Positions 4,211 through 22,774 of a stretch of 22,774 nt of DNA are shown here, piece by piece (position 1 is the stretch's first letter; each line of letters opens with the position of its first letter). Under the pieces are notes generated by a model, which made no database searches, was not told the origin of the DNA, and was given only the letters and a program-made list of their open reading frames with translations. Made by a program: the position numbers and the translations under genes. The DNA is from a virus. The stretch spans positions 1 to 22,774 of IMG/VR virus record IMGVR_UViG_3300028388_004450, one strand, 5' to 3'.

Positions 4211-6039
4211 TGGCAACGCAAACCATATCCGTCACAGATCTCGACTTTAACAACATTCGTGCCAGCCTTCTAGAGAAGCTATCAGCTGAGTTTTCCCAGT
4301 ACAACTACGAGGGGTCGGGCATCGTCTCAATCGTTGACGTTCTGGCATACAACACACACTACAATGCCCTGGTAGCTAATTTCGCTGTCAACGAATCGTA
4401 CTTGTCTTCTGCGCAGTTGCGCAGCAGTGTAGTCAACCTTGCTCAAAATATTGGATATACCCCACGGTCTTATACCAGCGCGTTGATGGAGATCAACGTT
4501 TCTCTTGATCTAACAGGTGTGGCAGGACGACCGGAGAGCATCGTGATACCTGCCGGGTATTCGGTGGTAGGAACACGAGGTAGCGAGTCATATACGTTTC
4601 AAACTCGCCGTAACATTATTGGTTACGATAACGGCACTGGCATATACACTTTCCAAGACGCTGTAGATGGAAGTGTTGATATTCCTGTGTATGAAGGGTC
4701 ATCACAGAGCCGTACTTTTCAAGTTGGATCTTCCAGCGATGCAGCAGTGTACGTGATAACTGACCGCAAAATTGATATATCTTCTCTTCAGGTTGACGTG
4801 TATGAGTCACGCAACAGTCCTATATCAACGAGTTATGGCAACATAACTGAGGCAACATCTCTAACCGATCAGTCGGCTTTGTATGTCGTTCGTGAAACGT
4901 CTAGCGGTTACTACGAATTATTGTTTGGAACCGGTCTTTTGTATGAGTCATTCCCAACTGCTGGAAATGAAATACGGGTTAACTACCAAAGAGCAAGTGG
5001 GTCAGAAGCCAATGGCATTAATGTTGTTACGCCACAAACCGTCGTTACCGTCAATGGAATCGACTACCAGACAACCGTCACAACAGTTTCCCCTTCTGCG
5101 GGAGGCGCAGAAAAAGAAGATATAGACTCAATACGTCTTAACGCTCCATTTGTATATGCAACACAAAACCGTATGGTAACTGCCGTTGACTACGCAACAC
5201 TTGCCCAGCGTTATTACGGCCAGTATATTGACGACATTTTTGCATGGGGTGGCGACCAAGATCCGTTTCCAGAGTTTGGTGTTGTGAAACTTAGCATACG
5301 GTTTAAGGACAACGTTTCGGCGTCTCTCCAACAAACCATCAAAGACGCTATTACCGAACTTGCTTCGGGTCTTGCTGTAGCTACCTTCGACATTAAATTT
5401 GAAGAGCCACAGATTACATACATTACAGTGGCTACAACCTTTCAGTTCAATTCGTCGTTGACGAATTTGACAACAGGGCAGACGCAAAACCTTGTACGGC
5501 AAGCCGTCTCTGAGTACTTCGCCGAGGAAACGGGACGTTTCGGCTTGTCCTTTCGCCGTTCAAACATGCTGACACAAGTCGACGCTGTAGACCCTGCTGT
5601 GCTTTCGTCGAGGGCAGCTGTGACGATGTCACAGCGTATCGCCCCCACGCTGTTAGTTGCTGCGGATTACACGACATCATTCCCAACAGCAGTACTTGAG
5701 CCATCTAGTGAAACGTCAATCACATCGACGCCGTTCACCTATGCTGGTTCTAGCGTGTCATGTATCATTCGTAATAAGCAAGGGTCCACCACCCTCGAAA
5801 TTGCTGAATCTACTCCTCCAAACAACGTGATCGTTGACAACATTGGTTCTTATGTACCAACAACAGGAGTGATTAATTTGAGGGGGTTCAACCCAACGGC
5901 AATAGCTGGAGGTCAGTCGTATATTACCATTACAGCTATCCCTGCAAACCAGAGCGCTATTTCGCCGCAGTTTAATAACATCCTTGAGTACGATCCAGCA
6001 ACGTCTTTTGTAACTGCTGTCTCTGTAACTAGCACATGA
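4210..6039 (+). CDS. gp6: gp6-like baseplate wedge protein (J-like family)
   Basis: This is a homologue of T4 gp6 (660 residues; here 609), the protein whose dimers form the inner ring that holds the baseplate together and triggers sheath contraction. The N-terminus (residues 8-85) has the typical pattern LDFNNIRASLLEKL, then DVLAYNTHYNALVANFAVNE and SVVNLAQNIGYTPRS. About residues 300-360 carry the most conserved block: IRLNAPFVYATQNRMVTAVDY, with GGDQDPFPEFG soon after. The C-terminal 170 residues are more variable. It overlaps gp25 by one base and the next gene by four (ATGA). No DSD tripeptide occurs here, unlike the genes that follow. Confidence 0.95.
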   Translation: MATQTISVTDLDFNNIRASLLEKLSAEFSQYNYEGSGIVSIVDVLAYNTHYNALVANFAVNESYLSSAQLRSSVVNLAQNIGYTPRSYTSALMEINVSLDLTGVAGRPESIVIPAGYSVVGTRGSESYTFQTRRNIIGYDNGTGIYTFQDAVDGSVDIPVYEGSSQSRTFQVGSSSDAAVYVITDRKIDISSLQVDVYESRNSPISTSYGNITEATSLTDQSALYVVRETSSGYYELLFGTGLLYESFPTAGNEIRVNYQRASGSEANGINVVTPQTVVTVNGIDYQTTVTTVSPSAGGAEKEDIDSIRLNAPFVYATQNRMVTAVDYATLAQRYYGQYIDDIFAWGGDQDPFPEFGVVKLSIRFKDNVSASLQQTIKDAITELASGLAVATFDIKFEEPQITYITVATTFQFNSSLTNLTTGQTQNLVRQAVSEYFAEETGRFGLSFRRSNMLTQVDAVDPAVLSSRAAVTMSQRIAPTLLVAADYTTSFPTAVLEPSSETSITSTPFTYAGSSVSCIIRNKQGSTTLEIAESTPPNNVIVDNIGSYVPTTGVINLRGFNPTAIAGGQSYITITAIPANQSAISPQFNNILEYDPATSFVTAVSVTST

Positions 6040-7085
6040 TTGACTTATCACTAATCGACGATGATACGATCGACTGGCCACTTGTTAACCAAGAGCTGTC
6101 AAATGTCGTGCCGTCTTTCTTTTATGAAAAGTACCCGAACTTAATTGAGTGGTTGTCTTTCTATCTTGAAGACTTGCCTTCGACAAAAACGTATGAGATG
6201 TTCCACAATAATCCATACGTTCTCAAAACAATCAGCAAAGTCAATTCAGAATTGCTAAAATTTCTTGAAGATGAACTAGCCCTTGGCTACACGTTCTCTT
6301 CAAATGATGCAAATAGACGTTTTATACTGCAGCGTCTATCACAAATCATCCAAACAAAAGGATCACTATTCAGCATCCAGCAATTCTTTAAGATCTTGTA
6401 TGGGGTCGAACCAGATGTTGTCTACACAAAACGTAACGTGTTCATCGTGGATGACTCGCTAATTGGCCCCCTGAGTGACCGTTATATAATCAATGATCGT
6501 TTATACCAAACGTTTGCCATCTTAATACGTGTGCCGATTCCTGCGCAGCTATGGGAAGAAACATATCGTACACTCATCCATACCGCTGGTATGTATCTCG
6601 GCGCAGAGATATCGTTAGTGTCCGTCGCGACCGTTGAAAACACAGCAGACGATCTCAACCATGAAACCATAATCTCACAGTCAGTTTCTATTGGCGCTGT
6701 GTCCGAAGGTGCGGCAACAATTGGCGACCAAACCAATTTGGAAACGACTCAACTGCTTGCATACCCCACGCCCGATAGTGACGTCGATGGGTTCTTGCGT
6801 ATTGCACCGACTTCGACATTCGCCACCTTCTCTACGTTGCAAGGGTTTGATAGTGCAGGGGACAGCGATCCATTGCTTTCACTAGCCAACGTATCAGCAA
6901 TGTACAGCAGCATCGAACGCTTTATCGATATCACCTCGCCGTCTGTCGACCAAGACAGTGCCGTTGGCATCACACCTTCAAGTACCATCGAAACAGTTGA
7001 CGCAGACCAGTACTATTACTGGGACAGCGACAGCGACCGTTATCTCAATCAAATACTAACAATGTCCAACAACACCAATAAATAA
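6036..7085 (+). CDS. baseplate wedge-like protein following gp6 (possible gp7 counterpart)
   Basis: The first 200 residues are alpha-helical with many aromatics (VPSFFYEKYPNLIEWLSFYL, then FSIQQFFKILYG at about 117-128). This pattern recurs in proteins directly after gp6 in marine T4-like phages and resembles wedge proteins of the P2 gpI type. The remaining 140 residues switch to a beta-rich, Ser/Thr/Asp-rich sequence with several DSD and DSA tripeptides, including DSDSD near the C-terminus. Position suggests it fills the role of gp7, the wedge initiator of T4, but it is about a third of the length of T4 gp7 (1032 residues), so homology is not claimed. The start overlaps gp6 by four bases. 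The stop codon lies inside a late promoter box. Confidence 0.7.
   Translation: MIDLSLIDDDTIDWPLVNQELSNVVPSFFYEKYPNLIEWLSFYLEDLPSTKTYEMFHNNPYVLKTISKVNSELLKFLEDELALGYTFSSNDANRRFILQRLSQIIQTKGSLFSIQQFFKILYGVEPDVVYTKRNVFIVDDSLIGPLSDRYIINDRLYQTFAILIRVPIPAQLWEETYRTLIHTAGMYLGAEISLVSVATVENTADDLNHETIISQSVSIGAVSEGAATIGDQTNLETTQLLAYPTPDSDVDGFLRIAPTSTFATFSTLQGFDSAGDSDPLLSLANVSAMYSSIERFIDITSPSVDQDSAVGITPSSTIETVDADQYYYWDSDSDRYLNQILTMSNNTNK
7077..7084 (+). promoter_or_regulatory. T4-type late promoter core AATAAATA
   Basis: AATAAATA fits the NATAAATA late core and overlaps the last codons and stop of the upstream gene. With T4 spacing, +1 would be about 7090, giving a 20-base leader before the ATG at 7110. 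The match uses A at the variable first position, so support is weaker than for the CATAAATA copies. Confidence 0.45.
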
Positions 7086-7109
7086 GCCTAAACCGGTGTA
7101 ATAACGATC

Positions 7110-8114
7110 ATGTCAAGACAAAATATCAACAGGGGCTCAGTAGCCAACGACGGAACAGGCGACACACTCCGCACCTTTGCGCAAAAATGCAACGACAATT
7201 TTATCGAGCTGTATGGAGTGTTCGGCGACAGTTCAGAATTCAACCCCTTGTACACGTTCGACAGTGCAGGAATCACTGTACGCTCTACTCCTGGCGACAC
7301 CACGCCGGTTGTGTTGTCCTTTCCAAACACACCGTCAACGACGCTAATATCCTTTCCTGATTCGGCAGGAACTGTACTAATCGATACTGCGTCTCAGACG
7401 ATCACCAACAAAACTATATTGGGCGCTACTGTTGATGATCTGAGTGTTCGCGATGCCAGCGACACATATTCGTACGATGTTGTTGGGGGAACACTCGCTG
7501 CAAACCGAACCATCAATCTTCCCGCCCTGACTGACAGTGACACATTCGTTTTTGTTGATGCACCACAAACTCTGTTGTTAAAAACCCTATCGTCACCTTC
7601 TTTACAGACACCAAAAATTGTAACGGCGATACACGACACTAACGACAATCCTGTGGTCGATATCGTTGCAACGCCCGGCGTAATTACAAACCGAGTTAGC
7701 GTCACCAATGAAACAACAGGCAATAATCCTTCGTTATCTGCCAGCGGTGCTGATAGTGACATAACACTCAACATCACGGGCAAAGGAACAGGCGTTGTCA
7801 ACATCGCATCTGGCCTTGCTTACCAAACGCAGGTGCAAACAACGGCCGGGGCAATCAGCCTTTCCACCCCTTTAACTCTATTCAATAGTGGTGTGGGGAT
7901 TGCCGCATCGTTAGCAAATGGGGTGCAAACCGGACACACAAAGAAACTGATCAACGTCAACACCGGCCTTGTGACAGTAACTCCTTCTACATTTGCTCAG
8001 GGTACGAGTATCGCGATGGCAGCAAACAGCTCTTGTGAATTGATATGGGCTGGTTCGTCGTGGCACTTGTTTGCCAGCCAAGACAGCGATAACACATTAC
8101 AGATCAACACTTAA
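7110..8114 (+). CDS. fibre-like virion structural protein
   Basis: Residues 3-30 carry an INRGSVANDGTGDTLRTFAQ pattern, a recurrent N-terminal module of virion proteins in marine T4-like phages. It is followed by repeated beta-rich segments, including a SQTITNKTI motif typical of phage tail fibres (about residues 95-103) and a GTGVVNIASG strand-turn near 230. The last 65 residues form a separate small domain (LINVNTGLVTVTP to the end) of the kind often used as a fibre tip or trimerisation end. It lies between the wedge genes and gp8, and is probably attached to the baseplate. There is no strong Shine-Dalgarno sequence. A late promoter box lies 26 bases before the start. DSD occurs at least three times. 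The exact role is not known. Confidence 0.75.
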   Translation: MSRQNINRGSVANDGTGDTLRTFAQKCNDNFIELYGVFGDSSEFNPLYTFDSAGITVRSTPGDTTPVVLSFPNTPSTTLISFPDSAGTVLIDTASQTITNKTILGATVDDLSVRDASDTYSYDVVGGTLAANRTINLPALTDSDTFVFVDAPQTLLLKTLSSPSLQTPKIVTAIHDTNDNPVVDIVATPGVITNRVSVTNETTGNNPSLSASGADSDITLNITGKGTGVVNIASGLAYQTQVQTTAGAISLSTPLTLFNSGVGIAASLANGVQTGHTKKLINVNTGLVTVTPSTFAQGTSIAMAANSSCELIWAGSSWHLFASQDSDNTLQINT

Positions 8115-8126
8115 TAGGCAACTAAA

Positions 8127-9479
8127 GTGACAGCAAAGATTACTAATTATTTTCGACGTCAGTCGCTCGCACCGTTTATTGGTTCGCTAGACAGCGATTA
8201 CTACTACATCGCCGTTGGACGGTCACAAGATTGGGTCGACAGTGATGGTGCAGGCACACTCGTTGTTGACGCAGAAACGGGGTCTGACAAGCAGTTGCGT
8301 GATCTGCGCAACAATATGCAATACATGCGACGAGTGGTTGATGGTATCTTCGTTGCTCCACGCGTCAACTGGTCGTCAGGTACAACCTATTCAGCTTACG
8401 ATGATATGACAGTGGATCACACTGGCTCTGCGTGGTACGTAATAACACAAACAAATGACGTTTACATCTGCTTGCAGCAAGGTAAAACTGCTCTCGGCAG
8501 TTCAGTCACTTCAACTGTTCAACCAACCGGCACGGCAACCACTCCATTCACCACGGCAGATGGTTATGTTTGGAAGTATTTGTTCACAGTAGGGGCAACG
8601 AACGCAAACACCTTTCTTTCTTCCAACTACATTCCTGTTCCGTTCATCACAGGAACACCTCCATTCGATACTTCATCTGAAGTAGATCAATATAATGTCC
8701 AGCAAGCTGCAACGCCAGGCGAAATAGTTGGCATTGCCGTAACCTCTGGTGGTACAGGGTATACATCTGTGCCGTCCGTAGTGATAACAGGACCGGGCGG
8801 AACCAGCGCAACAGCCACAGCAACGGTGTCTGGTGGAGCCGTTGTTAAGGTAGAAATGACGGCAAGGGGATCGGGCTATGAAGATGCCATCGTAACATTT
8901 ACTGGTGGTGGCGGTACGGGTGCGGCTGCTCGTGCAATTATATCTAAACAAGGTATCGGCGCTGATGCTCGGACGGACATGAACGCAACTGGAGTGATGT
9001 TCAACACCAAACTAGAAGGCGATGCTGATCTGGCATACATCCTCAACGATTTTCAGCAAGCGGCGTTATTCACAAACCCAAAAGTTCCCATCACCGACAG
9101 TGATTTTACGGGCACTGTAGGTAGTACACTACGTAGACTACGTTTTGATATAGCGACCTTTACCGGCACTCTCGAAGCTCTTCCCAAAAACCTACTTGTG
9201 GAGCAAACGCCAAATGGGGTATCTGCTTACGTCGATAAATTCGACAGCGATACTATTTGGTACCACCAAACACGTGAAACTGGTTTTGCTGATTTTGTCC
9301 CGGGCGATCAAATAACGTGGAGTGGTGGTTCAGCGACGCTTTATGCAGACAGTGCCACTGCACTAATTGAAGCAGATGTAGATAAGTATTCAGGACAAAT
9401 ACTCCACATTGATAATTTCGCGGCAGTGTCACGCAACACCAATACAACCGATGACATCAAGATTGTGGTGCAATTCTAA
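8127..9479 (+). CDS. gp8: gp8-like baseplate wedge protein with a Gly-rich insert
   Basis: This is a homologue of T4 gp8 (334 residues; here 450), which bridges gp6, gp7 and gp10 in the baseplate. Matching segments are YYIAVGRSQDW near residue 27, DGYVWKYLF at about 143-151 followed by SNYIPVPF, and the C-terminus GQILHIDNF to IKIVVQF, all in the same order as in T4. An insertion at about residues 197-275 consists of two tandem beta units (TSGGTGYTSVPSVVITG, then ARGSGYEDAIVTFTGGG) of a kind common in phage and bacterial surface proteins and absent from T4 gp8. The start is a GTG. An in-frame TAG at 8115-8117 rules out an earlier start, and there is no upstream ATG. Confidence 0.85.
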   Translation: MTAKITNYFRRQSLAPFIGSLDSDYYYIAVGRSQDWVDSDGAGTLVVDAETGSDKQLRDLRNNMQYMRRVVDGIFVAPRVNWSSGTTYSAYDDMTVDHTGSAWYVITQTNDVYICLQQGKTALGSSVTSTVQPTGTATTPFTTADGYVWKYLFTVGATNANTFLSSNYIPVPFITGTPPFDTSSEVDQYNVQQAATPGEIVGIAVTSGGTGYTSVPSVVITGPGGTSATATATVSGGAVVKVEMTARGSGYEDAIVTFTGGGGTGAAARAIISKQGIGADARTDMNATGVMFNTKLEGDADLAYILNDFQQAALFTNPKVPITDSDFTGTVGSTLRRLRFDIATFTGTLEALPKNLLVEQTPNGVSAYVDKFDSDTIWYHQTRETGFADFVPGDQITWSGGSATLYADSATALIEADVDKYSGQILHIDNFAAVSRNTNTTDDIKIVVQF

Positions 9480-9496: not shown

Positions 9497-12400
9497 ATGG
9501 CATTTGACCTTACCAGTACTACTTTTCCTGTAACGTACCGCGATGACTTCAAGGACAGCGATAACTTTCATCGCATCCTGTTCAATAGTGGTCGAGCTCT
9601 GCAGGCTCGAGAGCTTACACAGATGCAGACCATTATTCAGCGCGAGATGGAGCGCTTTGGCGCCAACATCTTCAAAGATGGGGCTGCTGTTAATCCCGTG
9701 CAGAATATCAGCATCACAAACACTCCATCGGTTAAACTCAATACGTCCGTCAATTCACTGCCAGCCGATCCATCGACGCTTGTCGGTACCACTTTTACTG
9801 GTGCAACAAGTGGCGTGCAGGCAGTAGTACGCGAGGTGATAGTGGCGGAGGGCAGCGACCCTGCAACACTGTTTGTCGACTACGTTGATACGCAGGCTGC
9901 CATTTCAAGTGAAGAAACTATTACTTTCGAGTCAAATGAAGATATTAACAACGGGTCGGTGACACTCACCGTAGCCGCTAGCGCAACCAATCCTAACGGT
10001 TTAAACACCGTCGCACGCATTGATGCTGGTGTATTTTTTGTACGAGGTCATTTTGTATACACTGAAGCACAGCAGGTAATAGTCGACAAATACACCGACG
10101 ACCCAACAGCTAATATTGGCTTCACCATTTCGGAAACTGTTGTCACAGCCGACGACGATCCCGCCTTGTACGATAACCAAGGTGTCACGCCAAACGTAAC
10201 AGCGCCAGGCGCTGATCGCTACCGCATTCGTCTTACTTTAACAACACAGGATCAAGTGGACAGCGATCAAGATTTCGTCTTTGTTGCAGCCATAGTACTT
10301 GGGGAGGTGTCTGAGACAAACGATGGACGAGGTGATTATAATTTAATCCTCGATGTGATGGCTCAGCGTCGTTTTGAAGAATCGGGGAATTACACAGTTC
10401 GTCCTTTCTTTATATCGTTTAGCGAAGACAGTGCGGGCGGTACGCAGTATAGCCTTGCAGTTCAGAGTGGTGTTGGCTATGTTAACGGATATCGTGTAGC
10501 GCCACAAAACACTGTACTCAAAGTTGACAAGCCGCAGGACACCATTGAGATAAGTGAGGCAGTTAGCGCTGCGTCTTTCGGAAATTATGTTTCTACTGAT
10601 AGTAACCAGGGCTCGTTCAACACTGACGACTTCGAGCTAGTAACCTTGAAAGACGATTCTTCTTTCGGTGGTTCATCGATCGGCACTGCTCGTGTTCGAG
10701 CAGTAGAACCTGTGTCAGGTGGCAATTACCGTCACTACCTTTTTGACATCAGACTCGACAGTACAAGTGGGTTTTCATCACTGAAATCATTTGGTGTGGA
10801 TTCTAGCAATTACGCTAGTTTGATAGGTACTCAAACTTCGCCCACGGACAACGTAAACAACAACATGCTATTTACGTTGCCTTACCGTCGCCCTGCATTT
10901 GGTGCAGGCGTCAGCCTTGTTCTGGATTACATTGTTTACGAGCACTTTGTTGAAACTGCTTCTGCCTTTGAAGCCACGATCACGACAACGAAAGGGAATT
11001 TTACCTCATCATCATCGTGGATCATTACAACGCAAGGTGGCACACCCGTAACCCCCGACTCCATAACTGGCATTGGAACGTCTACGGCCACGATCGACAT
11101 AACCAGCACAGGCTTAACAGCAACAGAAACGCTGATCGTTCATGCGTTGGTGCAACGGCAAAATGTTCCGTACAAAACGAAAACTCTTATTAACGATGCA
11201 ACACAAACTAGCCCTCTACGCACATCTGCATCAGGTGAACAGTATATCGACCTTCGCAAGGCTGATATTTTTAATGTTACAGCAGCTTGGGACGCAGATA
11301 GCAACGACGTTCTCCCTCAATTTACTGTGGATAATGGTCAGCGTGATAACTGGTATGCGCCGGGCCGACTAGTATTGAATAGCGGAGCAACAGCTCCAGC
11401 CTCGGACGTTACCGTTAAGTTCGATTATTTCACCCATAGTACAGCGGGCGGCTATTTTGCCGCTAAGTCGTATGATGGTGCTGTAGCTTATGGTGACATA
11501 CCAAGCATTACCCTTCGCAATGGACAGGTCGTCGAGCTACGTGAGGTTCTCGATTTTCGTCCACGCCTAGATGACAATGCCAATGATGATAGCGCTGGCG
11601 TCAATTACTTTACACAGCCGACAGCCCGTCTATGCGACGTTCCAGTTAATACCACCCTCCTTGAGGGGGACATGACGTTCTACCTTCCACGGCGCGACAC
11701 TTTGGTAGTAGATCAAACCGGCGAACTGATTTACATTCTCGGCACTTCGTCGTTGACGCCTACCTTGCCACAAGTGCCACCAACGGCCATGGCTCTATAC
11801 GACGTCGATTGGCAACCGAATGCCGTGTCTACCAGTGAGATTCGCCCTCAATATATCGAAAATAAACGATACACGATGCGTGATATCGGTCGCCTCGAGC
11901 GTCAGATTGAGATCAACACTGAGCTTGCGACACTAGGACTACTCGAGGTCGAAACGGCGACGCTTGAGGTTCTCGATGAACAAGGCATCAACCGCACCAA
12001 ATCCGGCTTTTTCGTTGACAATTTCCGTGATAATGTTCCGCAGGACATCAAGAGCACGGAGTACATGGCTTCTAACGACATTGAACGCGGTGAATTGCGC
12101 CCTGCGTTTGCAGAGAAACACGTTCACTTAGTACAAGATAGCGCAGCCGGTGTCAACATTAAGCGTGTTAGCGATGCTATCATGCTTGATTATGATGACG
12201 AATTGTACATCGAGCAGCCTCTTGCATCTGATCCTGTTAATGTTAACCCGTTCAACATCACCAACAACATCGGTGAAATTACTCTAACCCCTAACCAAGA
12301 TAACTGGTTCGATCAGCGTGAAGAGCAAGAAGTTGTTCCTCCTGCTATTGAAGTGCTAGGTTCACGAACAACTACTGCAGGAGGCGTCACCACCAATCCT

Positions 12401-14803
12401 GCTGAGTTTATCACATTGTGGGAACGCATCGACCCTAATTGGAGAAGCTGGGATTGGGGTTGGTGGGGCCGCAGCGGCCAGAACCTTTCTGACGGAGTGA
12501 ATCGTTTCCTCGATATCAACGACATCTCTTACACGGCTAGCACGATCACTGGCGTCGGTGGAAGGTCTATTTCGAGATCAGAATTTAACCGTTCATTGTC
12601 CCAGATCTCTATCCAGCAGTCGCAGCAAAGTGGGCGAACAGTCCGTACGGTTTCAATTCCGTTTATGCGTTCACGCGAAGTGTCGTTTGTTGCGAGAGGC
12701 TTGCGTCCTAATACACAGCACTTCGCGTTCTTTGATGGCGTTGATGTATCAAACTGGGTGCGACAATTGACGGCAGGCGCGTCAACAGCACTTATCGATC
12801 AAATAAACAGCGACCCCGAAAGTGTCGTCGTCAATGGCGATGGGCGCACACAGCATCCAGACGGTAGCTCCACGTTGATTAGTGATGCTACTGGCACGCT
12901 ACGTGGGTCTTTTTTCGTGCCTAATTCTCGCACAGGTCTACGGTTCCGTGCAGGCACCCGTTCGTTCGCTCTTTTTGATGTGACTGAGCCCAACCCAACT
13001 CGAGCACGTTCACAGGCGTCTACAGATTTTGAGTCATCGGGCGATACGAGAATCACGACTACTACGTCTAGTGCAGGTATCACAATTGGGGGCGTTCTGG
13101 TATCCCGTCCTGATGCCCCCTCAACAGGCAAAGCAACCAAAGCGTCTCGTACTCGTACACGTGTTATCGATCTGCGCACAGATCGAACTGTTACACGCGT
13201 GACACGTACGACGCGTCGCGATCCTCTTGCACAGACCTTTTTCAATGCTGCTACGCATCCAGTGTTTGTAACTAAGGTTGGTGTTTTCTTGCAACGTGTT
13301 GGCTCAACTGCTCAGCGCGATCTTATCTGCGAATTACGACCTGTTGTCAATGGTTATCCCTCTGCAACCGAACGTCTGCAGTATGGCTCAGCCGCAATTC
13401 CTCATGCTGACCTGTTGGGACAAGAGAGTTCGACAGCTGCTACTGAAACCATTTTTACCTTTCCCCGTCCCGTTGCTTTGGATGCAGAAACTGAATACGC
13501 GATAGTATTGTTGTCGCAAAGTGATGATTATGAAGTATGGGTTGGTACAGTAGGCAACTTTGTTGTTGGTTCCACTGAACAGCGCATCACTACGCAACCA
13601 AGCACTGGATCGTTGTTCAAGTCACAAAATGGAGCGACGTGGGAGCCTTCTCAGCTTCAAGATCTCAAATTTAACTTGTACGTTGCAGACTTCACAAAAT
13701 CAACCTTCGAAGGCTCTGCATCATTCGTGCTCAATGATTTGCCGAAAAAGCGCCTACCTGATCAGCCATTGATAACAACTGCTGGCAGCAGCACCGTTCG
13801 TGTAGTGCATCCTTTCCACGGCATGTTCGCAGGCGACGTGGTTAATTTGTCATTGTGGGACAGTGCACTTGACAGCTCGAGCACCGCTGGCGGACTTGCG
13901 ACCAGCACCATTTCTGGCAATCGTACAATCATTGCTGCCGATGCAACGGGTTACACATTCGCCGCTGATAGTGTAGCAACAGCGTCTTCACGGAGTGGTG
14001 GACTAGGATGGCAAGCGACAGAAAATGCGATGGTCGACGTAGCGTATCTGGCTGTTGACCACTTCGCCCCTGATTTCACAACAATTGATGGTTCCTTTAA
14101 GTTGGTGTCAGGCAAGTCTTTTGCTGGCAATGAAACACCATACGATGCAGATACTGCGTTTACAGCATTTGACGTTCTAAACAACACTGAGTTGAGAGCG
14201 ACTAAACTTCTGCTCAACAGTTTGACAAGAACCTCTAGTGGAAACTACCGTGGCGTTAATATCGCCAAGCCTGTGGAAGTAAATTTGGCGATGCGCACAA
14301 ACAACAAGTATGTGTCGCCAGTAATCAACTATCACAACGCCAGCTTCCATGCCATCGCGAACGTGATCGATAACCAAGACAGCGCAGACGCTCAGTTTAA
14401 CACGCCAATTCAATACATCGCAGAAACCAATTCAACCGGCGGCACGGCAATTGCCAAGTACGTGTCAAAAACCGTTACACTGGAGATAGCGAGTGTTGGT
14501 TTGAGCATTATTGTATCGGCCAATCGTCCATCACAAACAGATTTCGATGTGTACTACAAAACAGTGCCTGTTGGGTCTGAGCAATCGATCAATGAGCGCC
14601 CTTGGGTCCAAGTAGAAGCAGACACCATCAACCCAATTGATGATGATGGAACAACATTCCGCGACTATCGTTATACGCCTGGTGGTCTGACAGGAACGCT
14701 AACACCGTTTAACCAGTTTAAAATCAAGATCGTGATGCGTTCTTCAAATCAGATCAAATACCCACGCTTTAAGGATCTGCGTGCGATAGCATTAACAGTA
14801 TGA
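9497..14803 (+). CDS. giant DUF4815-like virion structural protein
   Basis: The N-terminus (residues 10-70) has the DUF4815 signature: YRDDF, then FHRILFNSGRALQARELTQM and ERFGANIFKDGA. This family is found after gp8 in marine T4-like phages and is thought to form a large peripheral baseplate or fibre-base structure. The rest is mostly beta-rich. Noticeable parts are a Trp cluster at about 974-990 (WERIDPNWRSWDWGWWG), an Arg/Thr-rich linker near 1215-1240, and a conserved C-terminal block from DPLAQTFF (about 1241) through NGYPSATE to SQSDDYEVWVG that is typical of the family. At 1768 residues it takes up almost a quarter of the window. GAGAAAG at 9483-9489 can serve as ribosome site. It overlaps the next gene by four bases (ATGA). 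Confidence 0.88.
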   Translation: MAFDLTSTTFPVTYRDDFKDSDNFHRILFNSGRALQARELTQMQTIIQREMERFGANIFKDGAAVNPVQNISITNTPSVKLNTSVNSLPADPSTLVGTTFTGATSGVQAVVREVIVAEGSDPATLFVDYVDTQAAISSEETITFESNEDINNGSVTLTVAASATNPNGLNTVARIDAGVFFVRGHFVYTEAQQVIVDKYTDDPTANIGFTISETVVTADDDPALYDNQGVTPNVTAPGADRYRIRLTLTTQDQVDSDQDFVFVAAIVLGEVSETNDGRGDYNLILDVMAQRRFEESGNYTVRPFFISFSEDSAGGTQYSLAVQSGVGYVNGYRVAPQNTVLKVDKPQDTIEISEAVSAASFGNYVSTDSNQGSFNTDDFELVTLKDDSSFGGSSIGTARVRAVEPVSGGNYRHYLFDIRLDSTSGFSSLKSFGVDSSNYASLIGTQTSPTDNVNNNMLFTLPYRRPAFGAGVSLVLDYIVYEHFVETASAFEATITTTKGNFTSSSSWIITTQGGTPVTPDSITGIGTSTATIDITSTGLTATETLIVHALVQRQNVPYKTKTLINDATQTSPLRTSASGEQYIDLRKADIFNVTAAWDADSNDVLPQFTVDNGQRDNWYAPGRLVLNSGATAPASDVTVKFDYFTHSTAGGYFAAKSYDGAVAYGDIPSITLRNGQVVELREVLDFRPRLDDNANDDSAGVNYFTQPTARLCDVPVNTTLLEGDMTFYLPRRDTLVVDQTGELIYILGTSSLTPTLPQVPPTAMALYDVDWQPNAVSTSEIRPQYIENKRYTMRDIGRLERQIEINTELATLGLLEVETATLEVLDEQGINRTKSGFFVDNFRDNVPQDIKSTEYMASNDIERGELRPAFAEKHVHLVQDSAAGVNIKRVSDAIMLDYDDELYIEQPLASDPVNVNPFNITNNIGEITLTPNQDNWFDQREEQEVVPPAIEVLGSRTTTAGGVTTNPAEFITLWERIDPNWRSWDWGWWGRSGQNLSDGVNRFLDINDISYTASTITGVGGRSISRSEFNRSLSQISIQQSQQSGRTVRTVSIPFMRSREVSFVARGLRPNTQHFAFFDGVDVSNWVRQLTAGASTALIDQINSDPESVVVNGDGRTQHPDGSSTLISDATGTLRGSFFVPNSRTGLRFRAGTRSFALFDVTEPNPTRARSQASTDFESSGDTRITTTTSSAGITIGGVLVSRPDAPSTGKATKASRTRTRVIDLRTDRTVTRVTRTTRRDPLAQTFFNAATHPVFVTKVGVFLQRVGSTAQRDLICELRPVVNGYPSATERLQYGSAAIPHADLLGQESSTAATETIFTFPRPVALDAETEYAIVLLSQSDDYEVWVGTVGNFVVGSTEQRITTQPSTGSLFKSQNGATWEPSQLQDLKFNLYVADFTKSTFEGSASFVLNDLPKKRLPDQPLITTAGSSTVRVVHPFHGMFAGDVVNLSLWDSALDSSSTAGGLATSTISGNRTIIAADATGYTFAADSVATASSRSGGLGWQATENAMVDVAYLAVDHFAPDFTTIDGSFKLVSGKSFAGNETPYDADTAFTAFDVLNNTELRATKLLLNSLTRTSSGNYRGVNIAKPVEVNLAMRTNNKYVSPVINYHNASFHAIANVIDNQDSADAQFNTPIQYIAETNSTGGTAIAKYVSKTVTLEIASVGLSIIVSANRPSQTDFDVYYKTVPVGSEQSINERPWVQVEADTINPIDDDGTTFRDYRYTPGGLTGTLTPFNQFKIKIVMRSSNQIKYPRFKDLRAIALTV
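13167..13186 (+). repeat. intragenic 8-bp inverted repeat
   Basis: The arms TCGATCTG (13167-13174) and CAGATCGA (13179-13186) are perfect complements around a CGCA loop. It lies inside the 1768-residue gene, in the Arg/Thr-rich linker before the conserved C-terminal block. It may be chance in a 5.3-kb gene. Confidence 0.35.
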
Positions 14804-15018
14804 GAAAGCTAATATCAGTTGAAGGACATCCGGCACTGGTCAAGGACACGTCGAATGGTGCAGTCATAAATACCAATCACGAAGCGGTACGTGCGGCAAA
14901 AGCACGCAAGCAAGCAAAAGAGAAGCAACAGCAGCTCCATGAACGCGTGGATCGTATGGAACAAGATGTTGCTGATATTAAGTCGATGCTGCAGCAACTG
15001 GTAAACAACAATGGCTAA
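14800..15018 (+). CDS. small coiled-coil protein, 72 aa
   Basis: The first 28 residues contain HPALVKDTSNGAVINTN, a pattern I know from short conserved proteins beside fibre genes in marine T4-like phages. Residues 30-68 are Lys/Gln/Glu-rich with heptad spacing (QLHERVDRMEQDVADIKSML), predicting a coiled coil. The start overlaps the giant upstream gene by four bases, and the end overlaps the fibre gene at 15011 by eight, so the three are probably translated together. A coiled coil of this size could be a trimeric adaptor or assembly factor for the fibre. No enzyme function is visible. Confidence 0.8.
   Translation: MRKLISVEGHPALVKDTSNGAVINTNHEAVRAAKARKQAKEKQQQLHERVDRMEQDVADIKSMLQQLVNNNG
14865..14872 (+). 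promoter_or_regulatory. possible internal late promoter core CATAAATA
   Basis: This copy of CATAAATA lies inside the 72-residue gene, about 140 bases before the S74 fibre start. It spells part of the Val-Ile-Asn-Thr-Asn codons, which look conserved in the family, so it may be fortuitous. If used, it would give extra message for the downstream fibre. Confidence 0.25.
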
Positions 15019-15865
15019 CACGACACTTCTACTAAAGGATAACTTCGGCACACTCGTTACGAAGTTCAACCAGTTGTCTGGTGTGGTTGGCGATACTGCA
15101 ACATTGAACACGACAGCTGATTCTGCCGTAGGTGCTATAAACGAACTCCTTGCAAGTTTAGATTCCGAGACAACTCGTAACATTACACAAGATGGGCAGA
15201 TCGCAGTTCTCGACAGCGACCTTGCTGCCTACATCGTTTCAAACGATGCACGGTCAACAGTAATCGAATCTACAGCTGCGGCACTCGATAGCGATGTAGG
15301 CGCACGTGTCAATTTGACAACTACCGACCGCAGCTCGCTAGTGGCGGCAATCAATGAGCTCGACTCCGTTGGGTTGAAGAGTGTTGCACAAGATCCTACG
15401 CCTCAGCTCGGGGGAAATCTCGACCTCAATTCAAACACTATCAATGGCACCGGCACTATCTCTTATGTTGGGGATTTCACAAGCACCAACATAACAGCTG
15501 ACAGCGCCATCACGGCAAGTACGTTGATACTGAGCGATTCAGCTAATGTTGCAGGAACAGTGACAGCACTGGATTTCAATGCTACTTCTGATTTGGTCCT
15601 CAAAGAAGACTTAACGCCGTTAACCGACCTTCAAAAAATCCTTAATGGTCTGAATGGCATGTCGTTCACCTGGAAGCACAATGGCAAGCGAAGCATCGGG
15701 GTGGCTGCGCAAGACGTCGAAGTTGTCCTCCCCACTGCTGTTAGCGAACACAATGGGTTCAAACGCGTCAACTACAACCAAATCGTTGCAGTGTTGGTTG
15801 AAGTGGTAAAGCAACAGCAAGAGCAAATTAACACGTTACTGTCGCACTTTACAAATCATAAATAG
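15011..15865 (+). CDS. short tail fibre with C-terminal S74 intramolecular chaperone
   Basis: Residues 1-190 are a fibre stalk: repeated motifs such as AVGAINEL (about 39-46) and LVAAINEL (110-117), plus several DSA and DSD tripeptides. From about residue 191 the sequence follows the Peptidase_S74 endosialidase-type chaperone pattern: ATSDLVLKED, then LNGMSFTWKHNGKRSIGVAAQDVE, then FKRVNYNQIVAVLVEVVKQQ, ending in a helix. In this family the chaperone folds the trimer and then cuts itself off at a conserved Ser, here most likely Ser193. The mature fibre would then end near residue 192. It overlaps the upstream coiled-coil gene by eight bases and ends inside a late promoter box. Confidence 0.88.
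   Translation: MANTTLLLKDNFGTLVTKFNQLSGVVGDTATLNTTADSAVGAINELLASLDSETTRNITQDGQIAVLDSDLAAYIVSNDARSTVIESTAAALDSDVGARVNLTTTDRSSLVAAINELDSVGLKSVAQDPTPQLGGNLDLNSNTINGTGTISYVGDFTSTNITADSAITASTLILSDSANVAGTVTALDFNATSDLVLKEDLTPLTDLQKILNGLNGMSFTWKHNGKRSIGVAAQDVEVVLPTAVSEHNGFKRVNYNQIVAVLVEVVKQQQEQINTLLSHFTNHK
15857..15864 (+). promoter_or_regulatory. T4-type late promoter core CATAAATA overlapping a stop codon
   Basis: The box overlaps the last codons and TAG of the S74 fibre gene. With the T4 geometry (-13 to -6) transcription would begin at 15870, which is the A of the next ATG. Confidence 0.6.
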
Positions 15866-15869: not shown

Positions 15870-16226
15870 ATGGCGCATTACCAAGATATACAAATAGATC
15901 AGGGTCAGGACATTGCGATCCAGGTCGAATTGATCAATCGTGACGGTACGCCAAAAGATTTAACGGGCCACTCTGTCGCAGCAATGATTAAAAAGTCATA
16001 CAACGCTGATAGTGCTGATTCGCTAACCTTTTCATCGATAGTTTCGGCTCCCGCTACTGACGGTATTGTGGTCCTCGCTCTAACAAACCAGCAGACCGAT
16101 GCTTTACAGGCGCGACGAAATTACGTGTACGACGTTGAGATCAGTTTCGTCGACAGTGATGCGAATACCATAATAGAGCGAGTTCTCGAAGGAAGGGCTT
16201 ATATTCATCCATCTGTTACAAGGTAA
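15870..16226 (+). CDS. small beta-sandwich-like structural protein, 118 aa
   Basis: The pattern is IQIDQGQDIAIQVEL, then DLTGHSVAAMIKKS, then RRNYVYDVEISFVD and LEGRAYIHPSVTR. It matches a common small phage protein in fibre clusters that resembles the N-terminal immunoglobulin-like domain of baseplate upper proteins (BppU type). This is recognition by pattern only. It probably attaches a fibre or receptor-binding protein. No other Met is available before residue 41, so the start at 15870 is firm although no Shine-Dalgarno site is present; a late promoter core ends five bases upstream. The stop is six bases before the next start codon (GTG). Confidence 0.8.
   Translation: MAHYQDIQIDQGQDIAIQVELINRDGTPKDLTGHSVAAMIKKSYNADSADSLTFSSIVSAPATDGIVVLALTNQQTDALQARRNYVYDVEISFVDSDANTIIERVLEGRAYIHPSVTR
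16220..16223 (+). promoter_or_regulatory. ribosome binding site supporting a GTG start
   Basis: AAGG sits eight bases before the GTG at 16232, inside the last codons of the previous gene. It supports the GTG as start of the 80-residue gene, for which no in-frame ATG exists near the N-terminus. Confidence 0.45.
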
Positions 16227-16474: not shown

Positions 16475-18487
16475 ATGGCATCAATAATTCGTATTAAGAG
16501 ATCGCCAACTTCTGGCAATCCCGCTATCCTTGCTCAAGGTGAGCTGTCGTATTCCTACCTAACAGACAACGGCGGCAACGGTGGCGATCGACTCTACATC
16601 GGTACCGGCACAGAGACCGCTGGTGATGCTGCTAACCACGAAGTAATTGGTGGTAAGTATTATGTTGATCTCCTTGGTGGCGCCAGCGGAGCTTCGTTTG
16701 GTGTGGTTACAGCCAACCAAGCCTTGGTCGTTGACAGTGATAAAAAACTGAACGAGATACTGATCGACAACGTCACTATCGATGGCAACACAATCTCAAC
16801 GTCAACGGGCAATCTAGTACTAAGCCCTACCGGATTTGTCGACGCCAATACCAACCTGATTAAAAATGTTGGCGCACCTGTCGATAGTGCCGATGTTGCA
16901 ACTAAACAATATGTCGACGATCAGGTCATTGCTGGCTCAGGAACAGTGTTCCAGTTTAATGATGGCACAACGTCTCGAACATACACTGCTGCCAACGGCC
17001 CCCTTGAATTTATCGGGGGTACAGGCATTACAACGCAAGCTGTTGATAGTGATACGCTGAATATCAGCCTCACCGATGTTGTGACTGGCACAACAATCGG
17101 GTCATCAACGCAGATACCAGTGCTCACCATCAACAATCAGGGTCAGGTAACTACCATTGACAGTGCAACGATAAGCACTGCATTGAGCATAGCCGGCGAT
17201 GCTGGCGCTGATACTGTTAATGTTGGCACCGACACGTTGACGGTTGCTGGTGGCACAGGACTGTCCTCGACAGTAACAGACAACAACATTACTATCGATC
17301 TCGATAGCACCGGCGTTACACCAACGACGTACGGTTCAACCACATCGATTCCTGTTATCACTGTCAATGCTCAGGGTCAATTAACGACCGTCACTACAGC
17401 ATCGATCTCAACAGACCTGACTGTAAACAACGATACCATAAGTCTCGCCGACAGCGATTTAACTTTCGCTGCTGGTGAAGGATTGGACATCACCGTCGAT
17501 AGTGCTACAAACACGATAACATATTCAGGTGAAGATGCTACAACTTCGAACAAAGGTATCGCGTCTTTCACTGCAGCTGATTTTGGCGTTACAAGCGGTG
17601 CAGTTAGCCTCGCCGATACTGTCGTCAAAAGTGTTGCCACTGACGGTTCTGCTGCTACGCCAAGTACGCACAGCTTCGGCATTGTTGGTGCTTCGGCTCA
17701 GGGCGTCTCAACGAGCGGGTCTGGTGCTAACGTAACAGTTACAGTACAGGACGCTACGACTGCAAACAAAGGTGTTGCGTCGTTTAGCTCATCAGACTTT
17801 TCTGTTAGCTCAGGAGCCGTTTCGATAGCGAGTGGTGGCGTAAGCAATGCTCAACTCGCGAATAGTTCGATAACCATTGGCTCTGATGCAATATCACTGG
17901 GTGCATCCCGCACCGATATTAACGGCCTAACTTCGCTTGACGTCGACAATATTACAATCGACGGCAATACCATTAGCACGACAACAGGGGCTCTTACTCT
18001 TGATCCAGCTAATGCCGGTGACAGTGGTGATGTGATCATTCTTGGTAACTTAACTGTTAATGGTACAACGACTACCATTAACAGTACCGAAGTTACTATC
18101 AACGACCTAACCCTAACCCTAGCTGACTCAGCCACCAACTCAACAGAAGCAAATGGTGCTGGTCTCATTGTTGCTGGAGCTAACGCCGAATTTACATACG
18201 CTTCAACAGGCGACAAGTGGACAACCAACAAAACTCTCGATGTTGGCGGCAGTGGCCTGCTGATCGGTGGTGTTACACTAGACGAAACCATTGATGACCG
18301 CGTATCAAGTTTGCTACTTGCCGGGGAAGGTGTTGATCTCACATACAACGATGGCGCCGACACTCTAACGATTTCAGCAGAGCTAGCTACCGTTACTAAT
18401 CCCGGTGTAGCGAGCTTTGATAGTGATCAAATGACTGTAACGTCAGGGTTTGTGACGATCGTCGATATCGACGGCGGAACGTACTAA
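16475..18487 (+). CDS. repeat-rich tail fibre protein, 670 aa
   Basis: The N-terminus shows RIKRSPTSG, LAQGELSYS, GGDRLYIGTG and HEVIGGKYY. This base module is common in marine T4-like fibres. The rest is built from repeats: DNVTIDGNTISTSTGNLVL at about 98-116 and a near copy at 491-509; two long units with QIPVLTINNQGQVTTID (about 213-229) and SIPVITVNAQGQLTTVT (290-306); and three units of the type NKGIASF...SGAVSLA near 354, 426 and 636. The duplicated segments differ widely at third codon positions, so the duplications are old. The VDSADVATKQYVDDQV motif at about 135-150 is typical of phage fibres and often forms a coiled segment. A strong hairpin follows the stop. Confidence 0.85.
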   Translation: MASIIRIKRSPTSGNPAILAQGELSYSYLTDNGGNGGDRLYIGTGTETAGDAANHEVIGGKYYVDLLGGASGASFGVVTANQALVVDSDKKLNEILIDNVTIDGNTISTSTGNLVLSPTGFVDANTNLIKNVGAPVDSADVATKQYVDDQVIAGSGTVFQFNDGTTSRTYTAANGPLEFIGGTGITTQAVDSDTLNISLTDVVTGTTIGSSTQIPVLTINNQGQVTTIDSATISTALSIAGDAGADTVNVGTDTLTVAGGTGLSSTVTDNNITIDLDSTGVTPTTYGSTTSIPVITVNAQGQLTTVTTASISTDLTVNNDTISLADSDLTFAAGEGLDITVDSATNTITYSGEDATTSNKGIASFTAADFGVTSGAVSLADTVVKSVATDGSAATPSTHSFGIVGASAQGVSTSGSGANVTVTVQDATTANKGVASFSSSDFSVSSGAVSIASGGVSNAQLANSSITIGSDAISLGASRTDINGLTSLDVDNITIDGNTISTTTGALTLDPANAGDSGDVIILGNLTVNGTTTTINSTEVTINDLTLTLADSATNSTEANGAGLIVAGANAEFTYASTGDKWTTNKTLDVGGSGLLIGGVTLDETIDDRVSSLLLAGEGVDLTYNDGADTLTISAELATVTNPGVASFDSDQMTVTSGFVTIVDIDGGTY

Positions 18488-18538: not shown

Positions 18539-18823
18539 ATGCCGGCTAATATAAAGCTGAAGAAGTCTTCAGTACCTGCCAAAGTGCCTCTCGATAGTGA
18601 CCTCGCCTATGGCGAGCTCGCTCTTAACTTTGCTGATGGTCGTCTTTTCTATAAGAACTCTTCTAATGAGATTAAGAGTTTCATCGATAGCGACAACATT
18701 GCTAGCGCTGGATACCTCGATTCCTCTGATATTGGGGTTCATGTTCAAAAAAACATCTACATAGACTCGGCCTTGCCTTCTCCGGCAGGCTACGCTGAGA
18801 ACGACATTTTTCTTGTGATCTAA
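18539..18823 (+). CDS. fibre base-module protein, 94 aa
   Basis: The pattern IKLKKSSVPAKVPLDSDLAY, then GELALNFADGRLFYKN matches the N-terminal module of many marine T4-like fibre proteins, here as a stand-alone protein. It is distantly like the N-terminus of the 670-residue fibre (KRS...GELSYS...GDRLYIG). It carries two DSD and two further DS tripeptides, with a short C-terminal strand PAGYAENDIFLVI. An AAGG ribosome site lies at 18528-18531, seven bases before the ATG. It is the first gene after the hairpin at 18495-18518. It may be the remnant of a longer fibre or an adaptor. Confidence 0.8.
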   Translation: MPANIKLKKSSVPAKVPLDSDLAYGELALNFADGRLFYKNSSNEIKSFIDSDNIASAGYLDSSDIGVHVQKNIYIDSALPSPAGYAENDIFLVI

Positions 18824-20395: not shown

Positions 20396-20404
20396 TTATT
20401 GACT

Positions 20405-21352
20405 ATGGAAGAGTTCCTCTATTTTAGCTCAGTTGATTCAGACCCGGCAGGATATTTCATACCTGACGAGCGGGTTGCAACGCACGAACTACTAGAACCC
20501 GGTAGAAAACCTACTCTACCAATAGAGATCGATTGGACCAATCCGATCTCTCAAGGACTCAAACACTGCGTAGTTCAAAATGAGGATTTGATCTCTAACG
20601 CTCGCGGTTTGTCGTCAAGTCCGGCAGTATACGAAACTGGTTTCTTTCAGAACAACGATTCTGATGGGTTTCATCTTTTCCTTTCACCAATCATATCGCC
20701 AATACAGAGTACACCACTAACTACGATGATTCGTTATGAATCACCCGATTCATCTGGCGATAATGTTCTATTTGGAAATTTTGCTTATGTTAATGCTTCC
20801 CTCAACGTAGGTTGGGGTATTCGCAAAGTTGGTGCTGACCTCGAGTTAGTTACTGGCCAGAACTTATTTACACGTGCCCGTTGGACAGATGTGCTATTGC
20901 CATTCAACGAGATGCGCACATATGCTGGTGTATATGACGCTGTTGGTGCTAATCGCAAACTGTATGTCGATGGTGTCGACCAGGGCTCACCTGATACCTC
21001 GGCTAATACAGGAGGACCGGGTCTCACTTCAGTCAGTATCGGACTATTCAGCAACGACGGTGGAGGATACTTTGCAGGCACAGCCCACGCACAGGGTAAA
21101 ATTGAGTTTGCTTACGCTTGGGACCGCGAACTGACAGAACAAGAGATCGTATCTTTATCACGAGATCCGTATCAGATATTGCGTCCTGCGTATGGCCTTG
21201 AGTCGATGTTCCTCCTCACGCCTCCAGCACCTGGATTCTACGTTCATGTCTCCTCCCAATGGGTTCCTGCACAAGCGTATGTTCATGATGGTGCTGCGTG
21301 GCAACCAGCCACTCCTCACGTACTAAAAGACGGCGCGTGGGTACCTCCGTAG
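20405..21352 (+). CDS. concanavalin/LamG-like fibre protein B, 315 aa
   Basis: TLPIEIDWTNPISQGLKHCV (about 36-55) opens a LamG/concanavalin-type domain that extends to about residue 265. It includes ANRKLYVDGVDQGSP (about 182-196, the usual strand-turn) and the ending WDRELTEQEIVSL with DPYQILRPAYG. The last 40 residues are a separate element with three Trp repeats (SQWVPAQAY, AAWQPATPH, GAWVPP), a common C-terminal tip in phage fibres. It is a paralogue of the preceding gene. I chose ATG at 20405; a TTG two codons upstream (20399) is also possible. Neither has a clear ribosome site, so reinitiation after the upstream stop nine bases away is likely. Confidence 0.78.
   Translation: MEEFLYFSSVDSDPAGYFIPDERVATHELLEPGRKPTLPIEIDWTNPISQGLKHCVVQNEDLISNARGLSSSPAVYETGFFQNNDSDGFHLFLSPIISPIQSTPLTTMIRYESPDSSGDNVLFGNFAYVNASLNVGWGIRKVGADLELVTGQNLFTRARWTDVLLPFNEMRTYAGVYDAVGANRKLYVDGVDQGSPDTSANTGGPGLTSVSIGLFSNDGGGYFAGTAHAQGKIEFAYAWDRELTEQEIVSLSRDPYQILRPAYGLESMFLLTPPAPGFYVHVSSQWVPAQAYVHDGAAWQPATPHVLKDGAWVPP
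20524..20551 (+). repeat. intragenic interrupted inverted repeat in LamG-like gene B
   Basis: AGAGATCG (20524-20531) pairs with CGATCTCT (20544-20551). The inner ATTGG and CCAAT are also complementary, with a one-base bulge, although tight geometry allows only part of that to pair. It falls on the IDWTN codons, close to the place where the paralogue has its 13-bp stem, but its centre is shifted by about three codons. Confidence 0.5.
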
Positions 21353-21353
21353 G

Positions 21354-21361
21354 CATAAATA
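21354..21361 (+). promoter_or_regulatory. T4-type late promoter core CATAAATA
   Basis: The box begins one base after the stop of LamG-like gene B. With T4 spacing, +1 is about 21367, leaving a 21-base leader with a TAGGAG ribosome site (21376-21381) before the ATG at 21388. This is the most conventional promoter, leader and start arrangement in the window. Confidence 0.7.
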
Positions 21362-21387
21362 CAACACACTAACCATAGGAGAATATT

Positions 21388-21807
21388 ATGGTATATCGAA
21401 CTAGTGAAGTACAACAGGCCATTGCTTTGTTGACATCTTTGGGCTACACAGTGTCAAAAATAGAAGAAGACCCTATCGAAGATCAATATTACATGCAATC
21501 CGAGGTTTGGGAAAACAACCCCCTCGAATATGTGTCGTGGCTTACAGGTCGAAACCGCCGCGAAATGGTCGATCTATTCAACAACCTGGACCACGAACGG
21601 ATGGTGTCAACGTGGAGGCTGGACACGATATACGACGTTCTTGACGCAGGTTCCGATATTGCTCTCAATAAGAGAGGCCGTATTCTGATGAGACGAGCAT
21701 GCACCGAAGAGGTCAACAACCGTCTTGGGCAACCACAGCCTACCGATCGCAATAGAAAGGGTGGCTCTGGCCGTCAGCGACTAAAAACAGGACACAGCTA
21801 CAACTAA
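21388..21807 (+). CDS. hypothetical protein with basic C-terminus, 139 aa
   Basis: I do not recognise this gene. The first 100 residues look alpha-helical with mixed charge (SEVQQAIALLTSLGYTVSKI; RREMVDLFNNLDHER). Residues 115-139 are a flexible, strongly basic tail (RNRKGGSGRQRLKTG), which could bind nucleic acid or a partner. It has no DSD tripeptide and no beta-repeat character, so it does not look like a fibre protein although it sits among them. It has its own late promoter and an excellent ribosome site. A late-expressed assembly, regulatory or lysis-related role is possible, and I cannot choose between them. Confidence 0.75.
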   Translation: MVYRTSEVQQAIALLTSLGYTVSKIEEDPIEDQYYMQSEVWENNPLEYVSWLTGRNRREMVDLFNNLDHERMVSTWRLDTIYDVLDAGSDIALNKRGRILMRRACTEEVNNRLGQPQPTDRNRKGGSGRQRLKTGHSYN

Positions 21808-21818
21808 GGAACTAGCCA

Positions 21819-22088
21819 ATGCTTCAGTTGCGCATACGCAACTTTTTGATCGCAATTGATCAACTGCTGTATGTGCTTCTGACGCTTGGCGGCGGAATGC
21901 CCGACGAAACCATTTCCGCCGCGCTGTGGAGATGGGAAAGGGCTGGAAAAATCTACGGTCGGCTTTTTCGCCCTCTTGTCGATCTCCTTTTTTCGCCTTT
22001 TGAAAACAACCACTGTTACCGTTCGTTTGTGTCTGAACAGCTAAGAAGACACTTACCTCGTGAATATCACTTAGATCACGATTGCTAA
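21819..22088 (+). CDS. small conserved phage protein, possibly lysis-region associated, 89 aa
   Basis: The pattern LIAIDQLLYVLL, then GGGMPDETISAALWRWERAG, KIYGRLFRPLVDLLF, HCYRSF and LPREYH matches a short family seen in many phages and prophages, often near lysis or tail-end genes. Its function is not known to me. Residues 8-24 are hydrophobic and could be a weak membrane or signal-anchor segment, interrupted by Asp14. Cys66 lies in the recurring HC pair. AAGGA at 21806-21810 lies eight bases before the ATG. It follows the 139-residue gene by 11 bases and is probably in the same transcript. Confidence 0.7.
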   Translation: MLQLRIRNFLIAIDQLLYVLLTLGGGMPDETISAALWRWERAGKIYGRLFRPLVDLLFSPFENNHCYRSFVSEQLRRHLPREYHLDHDC

Positions 22089-22105
22089 TAGTCGAGGAGA
22101 CGAAG

Positions 22106-22774
22106 ATGGCAATAAAAATAAAAAATGTCACCGTTATTGATGACGAGCGCACTCTAATCCCCTCTTCAGATTCAGCCGGCGCTCGTCCTGGCTCACCGGC
22201 CATCGGAATGCTACGTCACAACGCTACACGCGATACCTTTGAAGGTTACCATAGTGAAAGCGGTTGGAAGGATGTGGGCATTCGACGTTGGCAAACGGCT
22301 ACCAACGACAGCGATCTAACATTATCACGTTTAGACGCTGGTAAGTTTTTTGTGATGAACCCTGTAGGGGATATCACTTTATCCCTACCAAGAATCACAG
22401 ACAGTGATGGCGGCAATGTAGGAATGTACATTGCCGTGCGTAATACATCGAACACGGGTAATGTCATATTCGATGGGGCAGATAGTGATCTCGTTGAAGG
22501 TGACGAGACGTATGTGCTCGGTCGAAACAACTCGTTATCGCTAGTAGCAACGCCACAAGGCTGGTTTAGACAAGAAACGGCAGTGTTTTCGATCTCTGGA
22601 ACATTGCTTCCCAACATTCTTGAATTCACATCGTCAGGTTCGTGGACTGTACCTATTGGTGTTGACAATGCCCGCATCCATTGTTGGGGTGGCGGTGGTG
22701 GTGGTGATGGTGTTGACGGTTCCAGGACTGAAGGTGGTCTCGGTGGCGTAGCGTCAGGTGGTGCGATCAATGTC
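22106..22774 (+). CDS. glycine-rich tail fibre protein (5' part, partial)
   Basis: The reading frame is open from ATG at 22106 to the right edge (223 codons seen). The ribosome site GAGGAG lies at 22094-22099. N-terminus: IKIKNVTVIDDERTLIPSS, then GSPAIGMLRHNATRDTFEGY followed by GWKDV, a docking module common at the start of phage fibre proteins. The middle (about 60-165) is beta-rich with three DSD tripeptides (about 67, 97 and 126). From about residue 173, FTSSGSWTVPIGVDNARIHC leads into a glycine run (WGGGGGGDG) typical of the glycine-rich domain of phage receptor-binding tips. The receptor-specific end lies outside the window. Confidence 0.85.
   Translation, partial: MAIKIKNVTVIDDERTLIPSSDSAGARPGSPAIGMLRHNATRDTFEGYHSESGWKDVGIRRWQTATNDSDLTLSRLDAGKFFVMNPVGDITLSLPRITDSDGGNVGMYIAVRNTSNTGNVIFDGADSDLVEGDETYVLGRNNSLSLVATPQGWFRQETAVFSISGTLLPNILEFTSSGSWTVPIGVDNARIHCWGGGGGGDGVDGSRTEGGLGGVASGGAINV

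Follow-up and report, generated by a model that had tools for sequence, protein, structure and literature searches.

The window analysed here is a 22.8-kb fragment (22,774 nucleotides) from an uncultured T4-like phage. Its genes follow the order amidase, gp5-like lysozyme, gp25, gp6, peripheral baseplate/neck-like protein, connector, gp8 and VrlC, followed by fibre and collar genes (Table 1). Based on PHROG matches and on the synteny with phage C48C1 and the IMG/VR locus L229, the succession of gp25, gp6, gp8, VrlC and fibres represents a T4-like (Kyanoviridae-related) tail module. L229 has the gene order of the window plus one extra fibre gene. Together with L216 it is the nearest IMG/VR locus found, with an identity of 47% in VrlC. 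The closest annotated record is C48C1, whose gp8 and VrlC are about 30-34% identical to those of the window and whose collar protein is 58% identical. No near relative of the window was found among the phage records by megablast, and scans of IMG/VR with single sequences returned no relatives of gp6 and gp8. In the region from 18838 to 21807, genes either match no family or match only Laminin_G_3, and that weakly (19694-20395, 20399-21352).

Table 1. Genes of the tail module in the window and the positions of Asp-Ser-Asp (DSD) and Asp-Ser-Ala (DSA) in their products.
Feature	Position	Strand	Family match	DSD and DSA
gp25-like and gp6-like core baseplate genes (contrast set)	3755..6039	+		0 DSD, 0 DSA
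349-aa peripheral baseplate/neck-like protein	6036..7085	+	Pfam Baseplate_wedge, weak	DSD 6774, 6861, 7023, 7029; DSA 6849, 6954; all AGY
Wedge/tail-fibre connector	7110..8114	+		3 DSD (7533, 7752, 8082), 2 DSA
gp8-like baseplate wedge subunit	8127..9479	+		4 DSD (8190, 8238, 9096, 9243)
VrlC-like protein	9497..14803	+	phrog_358	2 DSD (9554, 10259), 5 DSA; all AGY
S74-like fibre	15011..15865	+		2 DSD (15212, 15287), 3 DSA
Collar protein	15870..16226	+	phrog_1084	DSA 16008, DSD 16152
Fibre protein	16475..18487	+	phrog_15769 (N-terminus)	4 DSD (16733, 17045, 17450, 18419); DSA: 3 AGY, 1 TCA (18125)
Short tail-fibre N-terminal protein	18539..18823	+		2 DSD (18593, 18686)
Fibre/tail protein	20399..21352	+	Laminin_G_3, weak	2 DSD: 20435 (TCA), 20657 (TCT)
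Glycine-rich fibre-like protein, runs off the window	22082..22774	+		3 DSD (22307, 22400, 22481)

From position 6036 on, DSD was found 27 times in exactly ten proteins, compared to 2.8 expected (sd 1.7, z = 14) when the residues were shuffled within each protein. The initial annotation had counted about 26 copies in ten proteins and regarded this as more than chance; the recount bears out both statements, and the coordinates given there are correct to about 4 bases. The same shuffling gave an expectation of 3.3 for DSA, which occurs 20 times, and no other common tripeptide of this region comes close to the excess of these two. Among the 66 Asp-Ser pairs, the third residue is Ala or Asp in 47 and another one in 19, for which about 31 would be expected. 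The claimed absence of DSD upstream of 6036 is true as a count (0 in 2,001 aa), but since only 0.83 copies are expected there, it is not significant by itself. As a post-hoc observation, DGD, DND and DTD are absent from 6036-22774 (0 vs about 8 expected), and DGA, DNA and DTA are not depleted.

Both tripeptides, in the following written as DS[AD], are common to a large clade of uncultured aquatic T4-like phages. Thus, of the implied view that the feature is peculiar to this phage, only the part concerning its serine codons can be kept, as described below, while the peptide itself is clade-wide. Three IMG/VR scans gave 164 loci (829,000 residues), in which DSA amounted to 1772 vs 390 expected (4.6x) and DSD to 1211 vs 338 (3.6x). 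For the other third residues, DSS (1.7x), DSN (1.4x) and DSG (1.2x) were slightly raised and all remaining ones lay below 1x, among them I (0.85), L (0.75), V (0.77), M (0.82) and T (0.75). Since many of the sites are of common descent, these counts are not independent. In a non-redundant pool, from which segments with any common hexapeptide were removed, DSA (167 vs 59) and DSD (133 vs 60) took ranks 1 and 2 of all tripeptides by z. The permutations of the motif as well as DTD, DTA, ESD, ESA, NSD and DSE reached at most 1.3x in this pool, with 0.73x for DTA and 0.82x for DTD, and neither DGD nor DND was enriched in the pools of related loci. A fourth productive IMG/VR scan, carried out with VrlC, yielded 80 loci, of which 64 comprise at least 8 DS[AD], most of them several-fold over the expectation.

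The signature has a boundary, since the lowest loci of the first list, which were found via a widespread fibre N-terminus only, show none of it. Isolates of the same family are without the motif: HTVC008M, Melnitz, P-HM2, S-CAM3 and S-SSM4 showed no excess of DS[AD] in their homologous tail proteins, and neither did more distant phages. A partial exception is C48C1, whose peripheral proteins contain 28 DS[AD] vs 10.5 expected, with TCN codons. A literature search, which reached few subscription journals, found no description of the motif.

In the clade, DS[AD] is carried by the wedge protein gp8, VrlC, connector, collar, fibres, neck and sheath. For four long contigs (G001, G002, G003 and G005), the genes were assigned to classes via their homologues in G001, whereby the division into core and peripheral tail follows the established anatomy of the T4 tail, not structures of these phages. 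The peripheral tail proteins comprise 275 DS[AD] compared to 36.3 expected, the core tail proteins 0 compared to 6.4 and the head proteins 5 compared to 5.4. Likewise, G001 outside its DS-rich genes showed 20 DS[AD] vs 22.7 expected. We infer the exposure of the motif on the tail surface from the identity of these carrier proteins rather than from a solved virion. Of the site on the tail surface proposed in the initial annotation, the surface part is accordingly supported, as the peripheral tail proteins carry the motif and those of the core do not. A 2,855-aa fibre-like protein of G002 (L211:6129-14693) contains 80 DS[AD], just 7 of them with AGY. The dipeptide Asp-Ser is rare in the core tail genes of the window (672-6039; 2 vs 10.2 expected) and in the core tail of the four contigs (24 vs 50). 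Since it is weakly low outside the clade, too (12 vs 17.6), no weight was given to a reading of this depletion as avoidance of the motif.

Where the position within a protein can be judged, the sites are predicted to lie in loops. The model of the collar protein (pLDDT 93) showed an Ig-like fold, closest to the tail-tip protein of T5/DT57C, in which DSA 16008 and DSD 16152 are both placed in loops between strands, one of them touching a helical turn of three residues. The sheath sites of the relatives lie in segments that are unalignable or gapped compared to T4 gp18, and the gp8 model from four sequences reached a pLDDT of 41. Some sites are part of conserved repeats, for example ARADSDFD and LPDSAQV.

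The conservation of the motif was determined for 4,477 homologous pairs of 30-60% identity, which are not mutually independent. DS[AD] was kept in 36% of the aligned cases, compared to 9.5% if the residues were independent. At the aligned sites DSA and DSD interchange, while DTD/DTA, DND/DNA, NSA/NSD and ESA/ESD lie at or below the expectation. Conservation at aligned places beyond that of the single residues, in the ten unrelated proteins of the window, corresponds to the behaviour of a short linear motif. The serine codons were less constant: 28% of the co-conserved sites pair AGY with TCN. All four DSD of the window's gp8 recur at matching aligned places in the gp8 of G001 (44% identical), with the codons AGC/TCG, AGT/TCT, AGT/AGT and AGC/TCT (window/G001), so that the codon class differs in three of the four. 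At FDSDQMT (18419) the window uses AGT, whereas the homologues keeping DSD use AGT in 5 cases and TCN in 9; at site 12137, AGC in the window, all 12 homologues keeping D-S use TCN.

DS[AD] is accordingly a motif of the clade's peripheral tail proteins that acts at the protein level. Tentatively, with a probability of roughly 40%, it is a short linear motif that would be read in trans by a modifying enzyme or a binding partner. Reading in trans is suggested by the occurrence in unrelated folds, the restriction of the third residue to Ala or Asp, the lack of Thr in place of Ser and of Glu or Asn in place of Asp, the absence from the core tail and also the placement in loops. Altogether, the motif resembles a site of recognition or attachment at the tail exterior. 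Most likely the serine would carry a modification such as a sugar, or a factor of the phage or the host may bind the outer face of the tail there. A more specific form appears rather unlikely as a whole: an enzyme encoded by the phage or the host would modify the serine in loops that face outward, in most of the peripheral tail proteins and in none of the core, with near-fixed AGY codons in addition in the lineage of the window.

The main rival is a plain preference of local structure, according to which D-S-A/D serves as a convenient turn or loop in the tail domains of this clade, was spread by descent and domain shuffling and involves no factor in trans. This reading is possible, if on balance doubtful. 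The loops of the collar model, the variable sheath segments, the slight increase of DSS, DSN and DSG and the sites within conserved repeats would all be in line with it. However, the tail proteins of the isolates listed above, from HTVC008M to the more distant phages, are homologous and show no excess, and Thr, Asn and Glu do not substitute. Furthermore, the pair remains at the top of all tripeptides after the removal of redundancy and occurs in unrelated folds.

Cation binding on the tail surface had been proposed in the initial annotation; as a binding of divalent cations through pairs of acidic residues it agrees with the two acidic residues of DSD. It is disfavoured and considered improbable, as DSA is more enriched than DSD and as DSE, ESD, DGD and DND are not enriched.

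The serine codons add a separate aspect. In the 27 DSD of the window, Ser is encoded by AGT (12), AGC (13), TCA (1, at 20435) and TCT (1, at 20657), which results in an AGY share of 25/27. The strong bias given in the initial annotation (25 of 26, with one exception near 20436) is thus confirmed, while the second exception at 20657 had been missed. Since the only two TCN-coded DSD are located in the gene at 20399, this gene may be a recent arrival. For DSA the AGY share was 14/20 and for the other DSx 9/19. Taken together, DS[AD] showed 39 AGY of 47, compared to 130 of 442 (29%) outside DS[AD] (Fisher p 9e-13). A general preference for AGY after Asp, which had been named as an observation that would speak against the claim, is weakly present (9/19 in other DSx vs the 29% background).

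In the related loci (164 loci, three IMG/VR scans), the codon class of the serine equals the background of 28-32% AGY. The AGY share in DS[AD] differs among loci, with a mean of 0.31 in a beta-binomial fit to 147 loci. Under this fit the 39/47 of the window have a tail probability of 6e-6, and the window is therefore an outlier even after allowing for 147 loci. The share is not predicted by how a locus uses its Ser codons overall and shows a weak link to G+C (Spearman 0.25). The AGY codons are a second, lineage-specific layer in the lineage of the window. Single transitions that turned DGD, DND or DTD into DSD, as suggested by the absence of these three tripeptides, would account for AGY, but as a general route this was unsupported in the aligned homologues.

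As a cause of this codon layer, avoidance of GANTC, the target of a HinfI- or CcrM-like enzyme, was considered, since GAY followed by TCN always creates this word, and the window contains 59 GANTC vs 84 expected. Such avoidance should deplete all four words in all frames. A shuffling of synonymous codons, however, showed a clear depletion only at in-frame Asp-Ser (GAY-TC in frame 0), while GAATC/GAGTC and the other two frames were near the expectation. Owing to this dependence on the frame, GANTC avoidance was rejected as the cause and is very improbable.

The remaining explanations place the signal in the DNA. The word GAYAGYGAY occurs 25 times on the plus strand of the window, always in frame, and 2 times on the minus strand, compared to 1.67 expected on both strands together; according to the codon table, ordinary residues would also be encoded in one other frame and on the reverse strand. 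The spread of a short sequence by duplication or by template switching, the latter proposed in the initial annotation, would account for one word in ten genes. It was rejected and is hardly credible, since the copies follow the reading frame and lie on one strand, the codon class switches at conserved sites, the gp8 sites lie at matching aligned places in a homologue of 44% identity and the pair ranks first after redundancy removal. In addition, the flanking codons and residues are not alike between sites, as the initial annotation had already stated for the residues in its argument against simple duplication. A DNA-level signal for recombination or protein binding common to the fibre modules, also proposed there, is refuted as the main cause and least credible of all: it would fit the near-fixed AGY and the 27 matches, but not the 25 of 25 plus-strand copies in frame, the mere 2 on the minus strand and the relatives that retain the peptide with TCN codons at conserved sites. 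Selection keeps the motif as protein and not as DNA.

By co-occurrence only, a radical SAM-SPASM protein and a GT25-like protein are candidate enzymes for DS[AD]. The former was found in G001, G002, G005, several DS-rich loci and C48C1, which is the sole good match among 50,697 phage records, with two others at 21% identity. Since G003 comprises at most a weak relative, the co-occurrence with the motif is loose. The GT25-like protein is present in the clade and had a match in none of the phage records. Placed between the genes for the S74 fibre and the collar, a cassette of G001 (L187:13860-19999 and L188:1-8908) encodes six radical SAM proteins, of which some have SPASM and one has a B12-binding domain, together with a carbamoyltransferase of the NodU type and several unknown proteins. 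Another region of this contig (L193:12964-16409) encodes a nucleotide-sugar epimerase and a GT25-like protein as well as two unknown proteins; among the phage records, the last of these matches C48C1 alone.

The most over-represented tripeptide pair of the clade is thus confined to the peripheral tail, which points to a common function of the tail exterior in aquatic viruses. If the serine is modified, this would be a rare example of a virus-wide sequon, by which such phages might change or shield their surface. Furthermore, the pair provides a simple sequence mark for members of the clade and for peripheral as opposed to core tail proteins.

Among known systems, the host recognition cluster of pelagimyophages lies between VrlC and gp14 and contains genes for fibres and glycosyltransferases as well as radical SAM cassettes (PMC7029224). 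The order of VrlC and fibres in the window and its relatives is alike, as is the position of the radical SAM/carbamoyltransferase cassette in G001, whereas the description of that cluster reports no recurring peptide motif (PMC7029224). Moreover, the cultured phage HTVC008M differs in having no excess of DS[AD]. The O-glycosylation sequon of Bacteroidota, D-(S/T)-(A/I/L/V/M/T), occurs in many unrelated proteins. Like DS[AD], it starts with Asp followed by Ser, allows Ala as the third residue and is spread over unrelated proteins. In contrast, it accepts both Ser and Thr, while DTA and DTD are not enriched here, and it accepts I, L, V, M and T at the third position, at which only Ala and Asp are strongly enriched in the phages. 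The serine-aspartate repeat proteins of staphylococci, which are glycosylated, also show alternating Asp and Ser, but there these residues form one long tandem repeat, whereas the phage motif consists mostly of single tripeptides distributed over unrelated folds.
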